From Bacilli bacterium (GTDB taxonomy: Bacteria > Bacillota_I > Bacilli_A > RF39 > UBA660): 64,000 nt of DNA. Under the pieces are notes generated by a model, which was not told the origin of the DNA, did no database searches, and saw nothing but the letters and a program-made list of their open reading frames with translations. This document shows positions 37,162-51,318 of the stretch, piece after piece. How positions within the stretch are numbered: position 1 is the first letter of the stretch; the number at the start of each line of letters is the position of its first letter. The position numbers and the translations under genes are program-made. The stretch spans positions 22,444 to 86,443 of the forward strand of contig JAFQQQ010000009.1 of the NCBI GenBank assembly GCA_017410525.1, in the 5' to 3' direction.

Positions 37162-39231
37162 TTATCTATAAATTTCAAAGTATTTTTTGCTAACTTTTTG
37201 AGTTATTCGAGTATTTACACGACTCATGTTCGAATATGATGTGTCTTCTGGAGCGACATCAGGTGAAATTACGGTAAAAACCACTTCAGGATTGTCATAT
37301 GGAGCATAAGCGGCAAAAGTTGATGTAGTAGTTGCCGTGTCTATTATTCCATCACCATCTGTGTCTAAAAAGCTTTGAGCAGTACCAGTCTTTCCTGCAG
37401 GTTTATGACTATAGTCAATATATCCATATCCTGTTCCACCTGGAGAGGTTACTAGTTTGAAACCTTCTTTTACTCTTTGTAAATATTTATCTTCAGTTTT
37501 AACTTTGTTTAATTCTTTTACTTCTGTTTCATAAATTAAATTTGTCAAAGATTCTTCCTTTGAATCAAACACAGCTTTAAGTAAATATGGTCTTAATCTT
37601 ACACCGTTATTAGCAATTGTTGACATATATTGTGATAATTGAATTGGGGTATATGTATCATATTGACCTATTGAGAAATCTAAAAGCAATCCTGATAATC
37701 TATTACTTCCTTCGTATCCTAATGATTCATTTGGTAAATCTATACCAGTTTTTACTCCCAATCCAAATTCAGCGAATGTATCCCTATAAATATCGAATGC
37801 AGATTCATCTATCTTTAATGGCTTATTATAACTATATTTACCTTTTCCTACTTTTATAGCTGTATAGAATTGATAAACATTTGATGAATATTTTAAAGCA
37901 GATAAATCATCTATATAGCCATAGTTTCTAAAAGAACATTTTATAGGAGTAGCAGCTATTTTTATACACTCATCTTTTCTAACTTCACCCATTTGTAAAG
38001 CACCCGTATTATAACCTACAATATGAGATGCGCCTTTTACAATTGAACCAGGTGTTACAGAACCTGTTATTACTCCTGGGCTATAATCATAAATAACATA
38101 TTTACCATCTTTTTCAACTATTTGTTTTCCTGCCAAGGCAAGTATTTCTCCTGTATTTGGATCATTTATAATTACATATGATTTATCAAAATACTGGGTG
38201 TTTTTTTCTTTTTTTGCAGCAATTAATTCTTCTTCTAATATTTGTTCTACTGCTTGTTGTAATTTTATATCTATAGTAAGCACTATGTCATTACCGCGAT
38301 TTCCTTTTGTAATTTCCGTTAAACTACCATCACTATTTACTTGATAAGTTGCCTTTGTACCTTTTAAATAATCTTCATATTGATATTCTATATAACTTGT
38401 TCCTACTCTATCAGTTAAGGCATAACCTAGATCTAAATAATACTCTTTTAAATTATATGGAATACCACTACTACTAGACGATACACTACCTAAAATTGTT
38501 TTAAATGTATTTCCATAAGGATAATACCTTTCCCAATCAAGTTTTACATTAACACCTGTTAATATATTTATATTTTCTGCTATTTTAGCATATTCCTCAT
38601 CTGTCACATCATCTTTTTTTATAACTTTTTCTGTATAGTAATAACCCTTATTCATAAGATTATAAATATAACAAGCTTCTTTATCTATATCTCCATAAGC
38701 CTCTATATCTTTTTCAGTTACTCTTTCTAGCTTTAAAGCATCTATATCATCTAAAGTTAACTTTCTATTTTTATAATCTTCCCATTCTTTATCTTTAATT
38801 CTTTTATTAGCTTCTTCCTTGTTATTTAATATCCAAAATCTCTTTAACATGTTTTCTGTTAATTTTTTATAATTTACATCTATATATTCAGCTACCTTGT
38901 AAGCAGTTTCTACTTCTTGTTTGGTTGTTATTTTATTTGGTTTCTTATAATAAATAGTTTTTACAGAAGTATTATCTACTATAATATTTCCGTTCCTATC
39001 ATATATTCTTCCTCTTGGAGTAGAATCTCCTTCTATAATATTTACAGTAAGTGTATTAAGTTTAGCACTATAATACTTGTTTCTTATTATTTGTACATAG
39101 AAAAGTGTTGATAATAGTAGTGCCATTATTATAATTATTATGATTACTAAGATTTTATATCTTTTTTCAATTGTTTCTTCTATATTTACTCTTTTTTTAT
39201 AATACTTATATTTGTTTATCTTTTTCTTCAT
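37162..39231 (-). CDS. Penicillin-binding protein 2 (class B transpeptidase)
   Basis: A peptidoglycan transpeptidase of 689 residues with a cytoplasmic basic start, one membrane anchor (about 27-48), a dimerisation domain beginning STPRGRIYDRNGNIIVDN, and the transpeptidase domain with Ser395-xx-Lys (GSIVK), Ser448-x-Asn (YSSN) and KTGT at 613-616. It resembles PBP2/MrdA or PBP2A types used in elongation. It shows the cell has a wall. The ATG at 39231 has no clear ribosome binding site of its own; an overlapping mini-ORF (39206-39274) with a good site may couple its translation. Confidence 0.93.
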   Translation of the reverse strand: MKKKINKYKYYKKRVNIEETIEKRYKILVIIIIIIMALLLSTLFYVQIIRNKYYSAKLNTLTVNIIEGDSTPRGRIYDRNGNIIVDNTSVKTIYYKKPNKITTKQEVETAYKVAEYIDVNYKKLTENMLKRFWILNNKEEANKRIKDKEWEDYKNRKLTLDDIDALKLERVTEKDIEAYGDIDKEACYIYNLMNKGYYYTEKVIKKDDVTDEEYAKIAENINILTGVNVKLDWERYYPYGNTFKTILGSVSSSSSGIPYNLKEYYLDLGYALTDRVGTSYIEYQYEDYLKGTKATYQVNSDGSLTEITKGNRGNDIVLTIDIKLQQAVEQILEEELIAAKKEKNTQYFDKSYVIINDPNTGEILALAGKQIVEKDGKYVIYDYSPGVITGSVTPGSIVKGASHIVGYNTGALQMGEVRKDECIKIAATPIKCSFRNYGYIDDLSALKYSSNVYQFYTAIKVGKGKYSYNKPLKIDESAFDIYRDTFAEFGLGVKTGIDLPNESLGYEGSNRLSGLLLDFSIGQYDTYTPIQLSQYMSTIANNGVRLRPYLLKAVFDSKEESLTNLIYETEVKELNKVKTEDKYLQRVKEGFKLVTSPGGTGYGYIDYSHKPAGKTGTAQSFLDTDGDGIIDTATTTSTFAAYAPYDNPEVVFTVISPDVAPEDTSYSNMSRVNTRITQKVSKKYFEIYR

Positions 39232-46802: not shown

Positions 46803-47477
<675 letters not shown>

Positions 47478-50470: not shown

Positions 50471-50500
50471 ATATAAAACTCAATAAGATTACTTATTGAG
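50471..50500 (-). terminator. Intrinsic terminator of the ubiquitin-domain gene
   Basis: CTCAATAAG-TAAT-CTTATTGAG, a 9-bp stem, followed by TTTTATAT on the minus strand, just after the stop at 50510. Confidence 0.72.
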
Positions 50501-50509
50501 CTTATTTTT

Positions 50510-51169
50510 TTATTGATTTCTAACTTTATTTTTATTATTAAAACACAAAATTGTACCTACTAATCCTAAAATTGAAATTATTAAGCTTACCACTATTTTT
50601 TCTATATTATCCAATGTATTAGGATTTTCTTCTACGTTTTTTTCTTCCCATTGTGCATAAAAAGTCATATCATGATCTATGCCTGATTCAGCTAAAATTA
50701 GTTCAAACTTTGTTCCACCACTTTTTTCAGTATAGTAACCTTTAAATGTATATCCTTCTCTTATAGGTTTTTCTAGGGTTGCTTCATATTCATTCTTCCA
50801 CTCTTCAATAGTTAAACTATTTTTATTTTCTTCAAACACTCCACCATTTGCATCAAATATTACTTTAAAAGATTTTTTAGTTAATCTTAAAACTAAATGA
50901 ATTGTACTTTCTTTTTGAACACTATAATCAGCTAAAGTTCTTCCTTCTTCCATTTCTTTACCCGAAAAAATTAACCTTTGCTGATCTACAGGTATACCTT
51001 CCTTTTCTTGTATTTTAGATTTAACAGCTTCTATTGTATCACTTGATTCAACTTCTAAAGTTATATTAGTTCCAGTTAACGTTTTTATGTATATCTGCAT
51101 AGCACTTATCCCTGGTACACAAATAAACATAAATAATAAAATTAAGCTTAAATAAATTATTTTTTTCAA
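50510..51169 (-). CDS. Secreted, membrane-anchored ubiquitin-domain protein
   Basis: A 219-residue surface protein. Residues 1-23 are a signal peptide ending GISA, with cleavage expected directly before MQIYIK. Residues 24-99 are a ubiquitin fold: an ungapped hand alignment gives 56 of 76 positions identical to human ubiquitin. Kept are Lys6, 27, 29, 33, 48 and 63, the Ile44 patch (Leu8, Ile44, His68, Val70), and Arg42/Arg72; Lys11 is Thr. The end LRLRGG is replaced by LRLTKK with no Gly-Gly, so conjugation is not expected. Residues 100-176 are a Listeria-Bacteroides/InlB B-repeat ([31 protein letters not shown]), then a membrane helix (191-210) and basic tail. Start TTG with AAAGGTG upstream. 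Solitary: no E1, E2 or JAB gene nearby. Confidence 0.93.
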
Positions 51170-51318
51170 CTATATCACACCTTTATTCTATATTTATTAT
51201 ATCACACCAATATTATTTTATAATATATTTTTATTATTTTTTTAATAAAAAATTTCAACCTTTATCATTAACAAAAAACACTATTTTTCATACTATAAAA
51301 TAGTTGGGAGGCATTTAA

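Follow-up and report, generated by a model that had tools for sequence, protein, structure and literature searches.

A predicted surface protein with a eukaryote-type ubiquitin head in a Bacilli genome and its scattered bacterial counterparts

Results

A ubiquitin-headed protein of an RF39 bacterium with predicted export

The window, by which we mean the whole 64,000-nucleotide stretch of DNA analysed here, comes from the genome of a Bacilli bacterium of the order RF39 and contains a whole gene (50510..51169, reverse strand) encoding a ubiquitin-headed protein with predicted export and surface display. The open reading frame (50510-51169) spans 660 bases, starts at a TTG codon and specifies 219 residues. 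A ribosome-binding-like AAAGGTG read off the sequence lies 8 nt 5' of the start codon (51178..51184, reverse strand), and a terminator-like hairpin directly follows the gene on its 3' side (50476..50503, reverse strand); two such hairpins were counted with both strands summed, against a shuffle mean of 0.1. A predicted signal peptide (residues 1-23; 51101..51169, reverse strand) with a maximal 12-residue hydropathy of 3.13 and two basic residues among its first 12 ends in ISA, and the junction ISA|MQIYIK, judged by layout, places this predicted end exactly at Met1 of ubiquitin, in agreement with the original prediction that cleavage would free this residue.

The ubiquitin domain (residues 24-96; 50882..51100, reverse strand) is identified by both a structure model and a Pfam match (PF00240, residues 26-96) of 97.7 bits, well above the curated cut-off of 25.4, and ends in TKK (50873..50881, reverse strand) where the alignment to human ubiquitin has R-G-G. 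The remaining 123 residues C-terminal to residue 96 include an InlB-type B-repeat, likely a spacer (residues 101-173; 50651..50869, reverse strand), as had been proposed to follow the ubiquitin; it scores 43.5 bits with Flg_new / List_Bact_rpt (PF09479, cut-off 27) and 27.3 bits with TIGR02543 (cut-off 20.95). The protein closes with the sortase-type motif NPNTLD (residues 182-187; 50609..50626, reverse strand), which follows an xPxTxD pattern seen in relatives, and with a hydrophobic stretch and the basic tail KNKVRNQ (residues 188-219; 50513..50608, reverse strand), read from the translation. This end had been described as one membrane helix with a basic tail; its hydrophobic and basic character stands, but the helix makes better sense as a component of a sortase-type signal. 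The ubiquitin part shares the AT-richness of its surroundings, as originally claimed, with a GC fraction of 0.282 against 0.262 for the gene and 0.266 for the window. The observation of a ubiquitin with predicted surface display in this bacterium is confirmed.

Over residues 1-73 the domain is identical to human ubiquitin at 56 positions, and the previously reported figure of 56/76 agrees with our alignment because the last three residues are TKK and not RGG. Lysines 6, 27, 29, 33, 48 and 63 are kept and only K11 is replaced (by Thr), as reported. L8, R42, I44, G47, K48, H68 and V70 are likewise retained, although A46S and Q49E alter the edge of the Ile44 patch, so that its description as wholly kept was slightly generous. 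Residues 19, 28 and 57 had been noted as non-animal-like, and the nearest rows named in our comparison are indeed Cafeteria and plant ubiquitins. In the predicted structure, pLDDT per ten-residue block is 78-90 for residues 21-90, 60 for residues 91-100 and mostly low beyond; among the 50 Foldseek matches listed, single-ubiquitin chains of 73-82 residues reach target TM scores of 0.89-0.98.

A conjugatable ubiquitin carries a C-terminal LRLRGG that is free or releasable. Here the alignment bears out the replacement of LRLRGG by LRLTKK, which removes the conjugating Gly-Gly, and further domains follow. Lacking Gly-Gly, a ubiquitin can neither be activated by E1 nor be released as a linear ubiquitin fusion, a property that would suit a stable displayed ligand.

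Genomic context and patchy distribution

Protein P0106, encoded on another contig, is 93% identical to the window protein over its full length. In the sister species G003 of the same genus (LepA 97% identical), locus L018 has kept six window genes in unchanged order about the site, with identities of 96, 94, 85, 79, 71 and 53%, but lacks W|5 and W|6, the two genes adjoining the window gene. The ortholog of the window gene occupies the same place in G003 but is split into separate frames (L018:3384-4074, also recovered as L003), so that the gene looks dispensable, provided that this single assembly is correct. By eye, the broken copy is fused to a fragment resembling an alpha/beta hydrolase. 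A collagen-like Gly-X-Y repeat protein of 218 aa is encoded at 46821-47477 of the window, and a 53% identical gene lies at the same relative place in L018. Genes for LepA, DnaK, PolC, TsaD and ribosomal protein L20, named by reading, lie on the same contig within the window, as does a gene for a PBP peptidoglycan transpeptidase (37162-39231, Pfam). The genome itself (G000) is a draft of 10 contigs with an estimated completeness of 95.28%. A chimeric contig, or absence of the gene from independent assemblies, had been set beforehand as grounds for abandoning the original prediction; the full-length P0106 match, the largely identical gene order in G003/L018 and a second ubiquitin gene in the G000 genome speak against both.

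Matches were found in 2 of 16 genomes of the genus, the second being G003 with its broken copy, in 10 of 385 genomes of the order above the cut-off (G003 included), in 4 of 392 genomes of a phylum sample and in none of 14 control genomes. These counts indicate an accessory gene with a patchy distribution. The earlier statement that such homologues are very rare in bacteria holds as to patchiness; it does not hold as to recurrence, since they reappear in distant bacteria. The initial protein search was dominated by eukaryotic polyubiquitins and gives no count of bacterial relatives. In the order scan, three of the 13 genomes (G354, G411 and G321) fell below the family cut-off; by eye, the place in G354 falls inside a frame resembling a ribosomal-protein gene, and no ubiquitin frame is apparent in G411. 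A viral source was sought in a viral_contigs search, in which none of seven candidate stretches was confirmed. Seven phage records, six from Listeria and one faecal, were taken as B-repeat matches (27-36% over spans all covering the B-repeat), one match lying wholly outside the ubiquitin domain.

Ubiquitin heads on different predicted anchors

The bacterial set comprises 26 rows, with P0106 counted once and the two records of the broken G003 copy (L018 and L003) excluded from row counts. Seven of 20 loci (L014 and L019-L024) did not enter the set: reading showed no ubiquitin in L014 and L019, and for the remaining five the decision was taken from the matched part of the query only. Of two matching Pseudoalteromonas records, one was taken. 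A hydrophobic leader precedes the ubiquitin in every one of the 26 rows (12-residue maximum 1.94-3.52), Ala stands immediately N-terminal to Met1 in 19, and none carries RLRGG. A short linker precedes Met1 in five of the six clostridial rows (L006-L011). Identity to human ubiquitin is highest in R. albus and L007 (65/73) and falls to 36, 35 and 23 of 73 in G320, G257 and G403, respectively.

The ubiquitin forms a single N-terminal stretch in 18 of the 26 rows, those scanned with Pfam, and what lies behind it varies. A dockerin follows in all three clostridial rows scanned (L006, L007 and L010); the genes L006:1443-1949, L007:620-2689 and L010:3766-5835 combine ubiquitin with a type I dockerin, and docking of their products onto a cellulosome-type scaffold is predicted. 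In Pseudomonas turukhanskensis and Neptunomonas antarctica (L015:5962-7206 and L016:5896-7173), leader and ubiquitin precede an autotransporter beta-barrel, and no Pfam autotransporter barrel was found in L017. L013 matches IPTL-CTERM with 21.9 bits (cut-off 20.8), G762 has CHB_HEX_C_1 behind its ubiquitin head, and no recognised Pfam domain follows the head in R. albus or G560. The gene of Ruminococcus albus 7 (L038:5992-6732) resides among hypothetical genes on its plasmid pRUMAL01, which is typed as mobilizable; nearby lie genes encoding a PI-PLC domain and a dockerin.

Retention of fold and surfaces

The window protein and P0106 differ at 15 positions, none of which falls among the 73 residues of ubiquitin, against 15 of 146 elsewhere (Fisher p 0.003); against the B-repeat alone (5/73) the difference has p 0.058. 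The ubiquitin domain is therefore conserved and is not decaying in this lineage.

Retention of eukaryotic residues was compared over 24 bacterial rows (the 26 minus two near-duplicates), with lists of patch and buried sites and 21 tests in all, whose P values are uncorrected. Buried sites keep the eukaryotic residue at 0.94, whereas the Ile44 group does so at 0.77 against 0.77 for exposed sites (P 0.67), and exposed lysines at 0.79 against the same 0.77 (P 0.48). The original prediction had taken the kept Ile44 patch and lysines as pointing to ubiquitin receptors, ligases or deubiquitinases, a deduction that these values do not sustain. In the nine f1 rows, f1 being the family to which the window gene belongs, the Phe4 surface is retained at 0.42 against 0.68 for exposed sites (P 0.003, uncorrected for the 21 tests), and residue 12 is eukaryote-like in none of the nine. 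Residues 2, 4, 12, 14 and 64 on this Phe4 side are the less retained ones in f1 and may mark a reworked binding face. As judged from these alignments, the ubiquitin fold is kept and its surfaces change, which argues against a common host-ubiquitin target.

A ubiquitin-sortase cassette shared between genera

The same genome holds a second ubiquitin gene (L002/L047:1019-1987; matched at G000:C6:1103-1309), encoding a 322 aa protein with a leader, ubiquitin (51/73 identical to human), another stretch, a B-repeat and an NPKTFD end. Together with a class B-type sortase gene (L047:53-901) it forms a cassette (L047:1-2008, in G000:C6) that is 99.45% identical over 2008 bp to L048:167-2174 (G035:C32), in a genome of another genus whose LepA is 72% identical to that of G000. 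LepA was taken after TrpS had been dropped as a marker of G035 divergence, its 34% identity possibly reflecting a paralogue; MetK was found in only 4 of 12 genomes. The right flanks of the cassette differ between the two genomes. The G000 copy starts at contig base 1, so that its left flank lies outside the assembled sequence and the contig end may reflect a mis-join; the rest of contig C6 fits the genus (TrpS 98% to G003). On sequence comparison, the near-identity of the cassettes is most simply explained by recent transfer between genera. Eight codons differ between the two ubiquitin genes, six of them replacements and one inside the ubiquitin domain, and two codons, both replacements, between the two sortase genes; such changes are too few for measuring selection and show no sign of constraint.

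G237 has a 76.5% identical version of the cassette flanked by two copies of AAATTACAATTT, and a tyrosine integrase gene (PF00589, L047:4082-5347) lies 2.1 kb beyond the G000 cassette. The 12-mer AAATTACAATTT was observed at cassette ends and in the first bases of three contigs (G000:C6:1-21, G000:C2:2-22, G035:C2:1-21, and L050:6070 and 8080), in two cases with a recombinase or integrase gene nearby. A longer AAATTACAATTT pattern with two mismatches matches the G000 genome six times and its reversed control five times, so that these ends are not established as a recombination site; AAATTACAATTT may be either a recombination site or an assembly-breaking repeat.

The sortase-type end

An xPxTxD motif lies near the C-terminus in all ten f1 genes and in P0106, as NPNTLD, NPKTFD, NPQTSD, NPNTSD, VPETGD, NPQTND or SPNTVD, although the pattern was composed post hoc from these same sequences. 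In the ends inspected, it is followed by hydrophobic residues and then by a tail that is mostly basic. With its signal peptide, xPxT motif, hydrophobic stretch and basic tail, the window protein has the predicted layout of a sortase-anchored protein.

A class B-type sortase gene adjoins the ubiquitin gene in the second G000 copy, G035, G237 and G045, and is separated from it by two genes in G403. With the class B model TIGR03064 (cut-off 153.75), the G045 sortase scores 165.8 bits and the G000 copy 152.2, just under the cut-off. No homologue of this sortase was found near the window gene or four other f1 genes in the stretches compared. The G000 genome has seven sortase-domain places above cut-off, and relatives of the class B-type sortase occur in 20 of the 20 genomes queried, many of which carry no ubiquitin gene; the sortase is therefore not ubiquitin-specific. 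NCBIfam sorting-signal models listed no match to the window protein at E <= 10, in a search whose filters drop most matches above 0.1, and only the G045 end matches EF0750_LPXTG (17.8 bits, below the cut-off of 47). When the window and nine further G000 loci were scanned for this ending, it turned up in both ubiquitin genes and otherwise in a single 91-residue frame that looks like a chance match, so that the NPNTLD-type end is not established as a general sorting signal in this genome.

SrtB of C. difficile is described as cleaving (S/P)PXTG and not NPQTN (PMC4155245). Field et al. report that most species of RF39, an order of small-genome Bacilli, are predicted to have a peptidoglycan wall, and the same source lists two neighbouring orders, and not RF39 itself, as without srtA/B (PMC10868615). 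Wall anchoring of the window protein is a prediction from its sequence.

Phylogeny and donor

The final phylogenetic tree comprises 41 rows (24 bacterial and 17 eukaryotic) over 73 columns, with many forks lacking resolution and a poorly resolved eukaryotic background. Within it, separate sets are formed by the clostridial rows (97/94), by f1 group A with the window (82/86) and by group B with G560 of another family (98/97). Constraining all 24 bacterial rows to one clade was rejected (p-AU 0.008), as was a single clade of all but the four proteobacterial rows (p 0.002); joining f1 groups A and B (p 0.16) or group A and the clostridial rows (p 0.087) was not. An earlier 46-row tree had given p-AU values of 0.035 when the bacterial rows were kept as a single clade and 0.052 when the f1 rows were, and contained four eukaryotic repeat pieces judged to be mis-registered; the final tree omits these, G403 and the P. 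shioyasakiensis row, the last of which had already been omitted before. Rejection of a single bacterial clade makes more than one capture likely; the evidence for repeated capture of ubiquitin by bacteria is suggestive, not final.

The comparison supports the horizontal origin of this eukaryote-type ubiquitin. A search with the ubiquitin domain returned general eukaryotic ubiquitins among the best 120 of at least 7991 candidates, and in a closest-row count over 240 retrieved proteins the best row, P0106 aside, shares 59/73 residues with the window and again belongs to general eukaryotic ubiquitins. These sequence comparisons point to no particular donor.

Discussion

Comparison with known systems

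The nearest described counterpart is BfUbb of B. fragilis, which likewise is of eukaryote type (48/76 identical to human ubiquitin, against 56/76 in the window) and present in only part of its lineage. According to the 2017 report on this protein, its signal peptide also ends exactly at Met1, its Gly-Gly end is absent, and as a 76-aa synthetic protein it inhibits 13 of 40 B. fragilis strains, bovine ubiquitin being inactive (PMC5705921). A 2011 paper presents BfUbb as unique and ubiquitin as otherwise restricted to eukaryotes (PMC3352274), and the 2017 paper calls B. fragilis "one of a few bacteria" (PMC5705921). BfUbb differs in being a free, antibacterial 76-aa protein with a terminal Cys. 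The window ubiquitin, from an unrelated phylum, instead heads a protein of several domains that closes with a sortase-type end, and the second copy in its genome adjoins a class B-type sortase gene. The layout in the nematode Globodera rostochiensis, in which ubiquitin with a 12-aa extension is secreted, is similar in combining signal peptide, ubiquitin and C-terminal extension for extracellular use, as outlined in the same paper, but that protein is eukaryotic and its extension is removed in the plant, whereas the window protein lacks Gly-Gly and its extension is a predicted anchor (PMC5705921).

Class B sortase substrates, such as IsdC (NPQTN) and those of C. difficile ((S/P)PXTG), are described with the same succession of xPxT, hydrophobic stretch and basic end (PMC4155245). 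The likeness extends to the class B-type sortase beside some ubiquitin genes, although the f1 motif is mostly NPxTxD. We know of no class B sortase substrate with a ubiquitin head. Proteins of the internalin or List_Bact_rpt type (PF09479) share the B-repeat, with ubiquitin occupying the expected place of their recognition domain; no leucine-rich repeat was found in the window protein with Pfam or NCBIfam, and the internalin models, whose matches (residues 74-184 and 72-176) fall mostly on the B-repeat, score far under their cut-offs. The "ubiquitin family protein" of Ruminococcus albus 7 (WP_013483628.1, pRUMAL01; 246 aa) also joins a leader to an N-terminal ubiquitin (65/73), but has a different tail in which Pfam matched no anchor domain. 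Among the papers listed by a literature search that covers few subscription journals were B. fragilis papers, reviews and unrelated work, and none on sortase-, dockerin- or autotransporter-type ubiquitin proteins.

A displayed ubiquitin head and its alternatives

We consider that the window protein may be a non-conjugatable, wall-anchored and outward-facing ubiquitin head with a putative binding function, a reading to which we assign a probability of about 0.5. The predicted signal peptide would direct export and be cut between Ala23 and Met24, leaving Met1 of ubiquitin first; a sortase would then cut after Thr185 of NPNT-LD and link the protein covalently to peptidoglycan, with the B-repeat as a spacer and ubiquitin outermost, where it would bind an extracellular protein partner. 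Given a constant fold whose surfaces have drifted from lineage to lineage, this partner probably differs among lineages and need not be a protein of the host ubiquitin system. The drift of the domain in G320, G257 and G403, to 36, 35 and 23 of 73 human identities, counts against an anchored head.

More tentatively, it is possible that eukaryotic ubiquitin was taken up by bacteria in several independent captures and, having lost its Gly-Gly, became a surface head on the anchor of each lineage (sortase signal, cellulosome dockerin, autotransporter barrel or IPTL-CTERM), with a mobile cassette for ubiquitin and class B sortase display moving between genera in these Bacilli.

The main rival is a competition role like that of BfUbb, in which ubiquitin, released from the cell or exposed on contact, would inhibit competitor strains. 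That BfUbb has a tested inhibitory function (PMC5705921), and shares with the window protein the signal-peptide/Met1 junction, the loss of Gly-Gly and a patchy, accessory distribution, speaks for such a weapon. The architecture makes it unlikely: unlike the free 76-aa BfUbb, the proteins found here are 219 and 322 aa long and carry a B-repeat as well as a sorting-type end; no immunity gene was noticed in passing; the neighbour common to some copies is a sortase; and the window ubiquitin part lacks the terminal Cys reported for BfUbb (PMC3352274).

The original prediction listed host mimicry among its possible roles. In such mimicry of host ubiquitin, the head would serve as a decoy or ligand displayed to host ubiquitin-binding proteins or to receptors of extracellular ubiquitin such as CXCR4. 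The retained L8, R42, I44, G47, K48, H68 and V70 and six lysines of the window copy are compatible with this role, as are the reported, and disputed, effects of extracellular ubiquitin on CXCR4 (PMC10892293). We regard it as improbable and unsupported by the comparison, in which the Ile44 group and exposed lysines are no better retained than exposed sites over the 24 rows and the f1 Phe4 surface is less retained (0.42 against 0.68). Most proteins of the ubiquitin system are intracellular in the host. The head is also found in Haliea, Neptunomonas and P. turukhanskensis, which are not known as animal partners.

Slightly less probable still is that ubiquitin acts as a tough beta-grasp stalk block, interchangeable with B-repeats and without a partner of its own. 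The kept fold with evenly drifting surfaces, the extreme drift of G320, G257 and G403 within the same architecture, and the six replacements among eight changed codons in near-identical second copies would all fit such a block, and the B-repeat itself is said to have a ubiquitin-like fold. A stalk block accords poorly with a single N-terminal stretch in 18 of the 26 rows (those scanned), with the contrast of 0/73 and 15/146 changes against P0106, and with bacterial rows that do not form one clade and thus probably reflect multiple uptake, though bacterial stalk domains are plentiful. An assembly artefact or eukaryotic contamination, to which a draft of 10 contigs and 95.28% completeness might lend itself, is scarcely credible for a gene with a bacterial-type leader, window-like AT-richness and a downstream B-repeat, on a contig with housekeeping genes, with a full-length counterpart in P0106 and largely conserved gene order in G003/L018.

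Significance

Ubiquitin is the textbook eukaryotic tag, and here it recurs in a scattered set of bacteria as the head of predicted surface proteins with different predicted anchors, one cassette among these bacterial ubiquitin heads pairing it with a sortase and being near-identical in two genera. The natural series from 65 to 23 of 73 human identities presents ubiquitin evolving free of conjugation. The finding could also bear on the immune cross-reaction raised by the B. fragilis authors. Should a displayed ubiquitin head be the correct reading, the question of why bacteria want extracellular ubiquitin would become testable.
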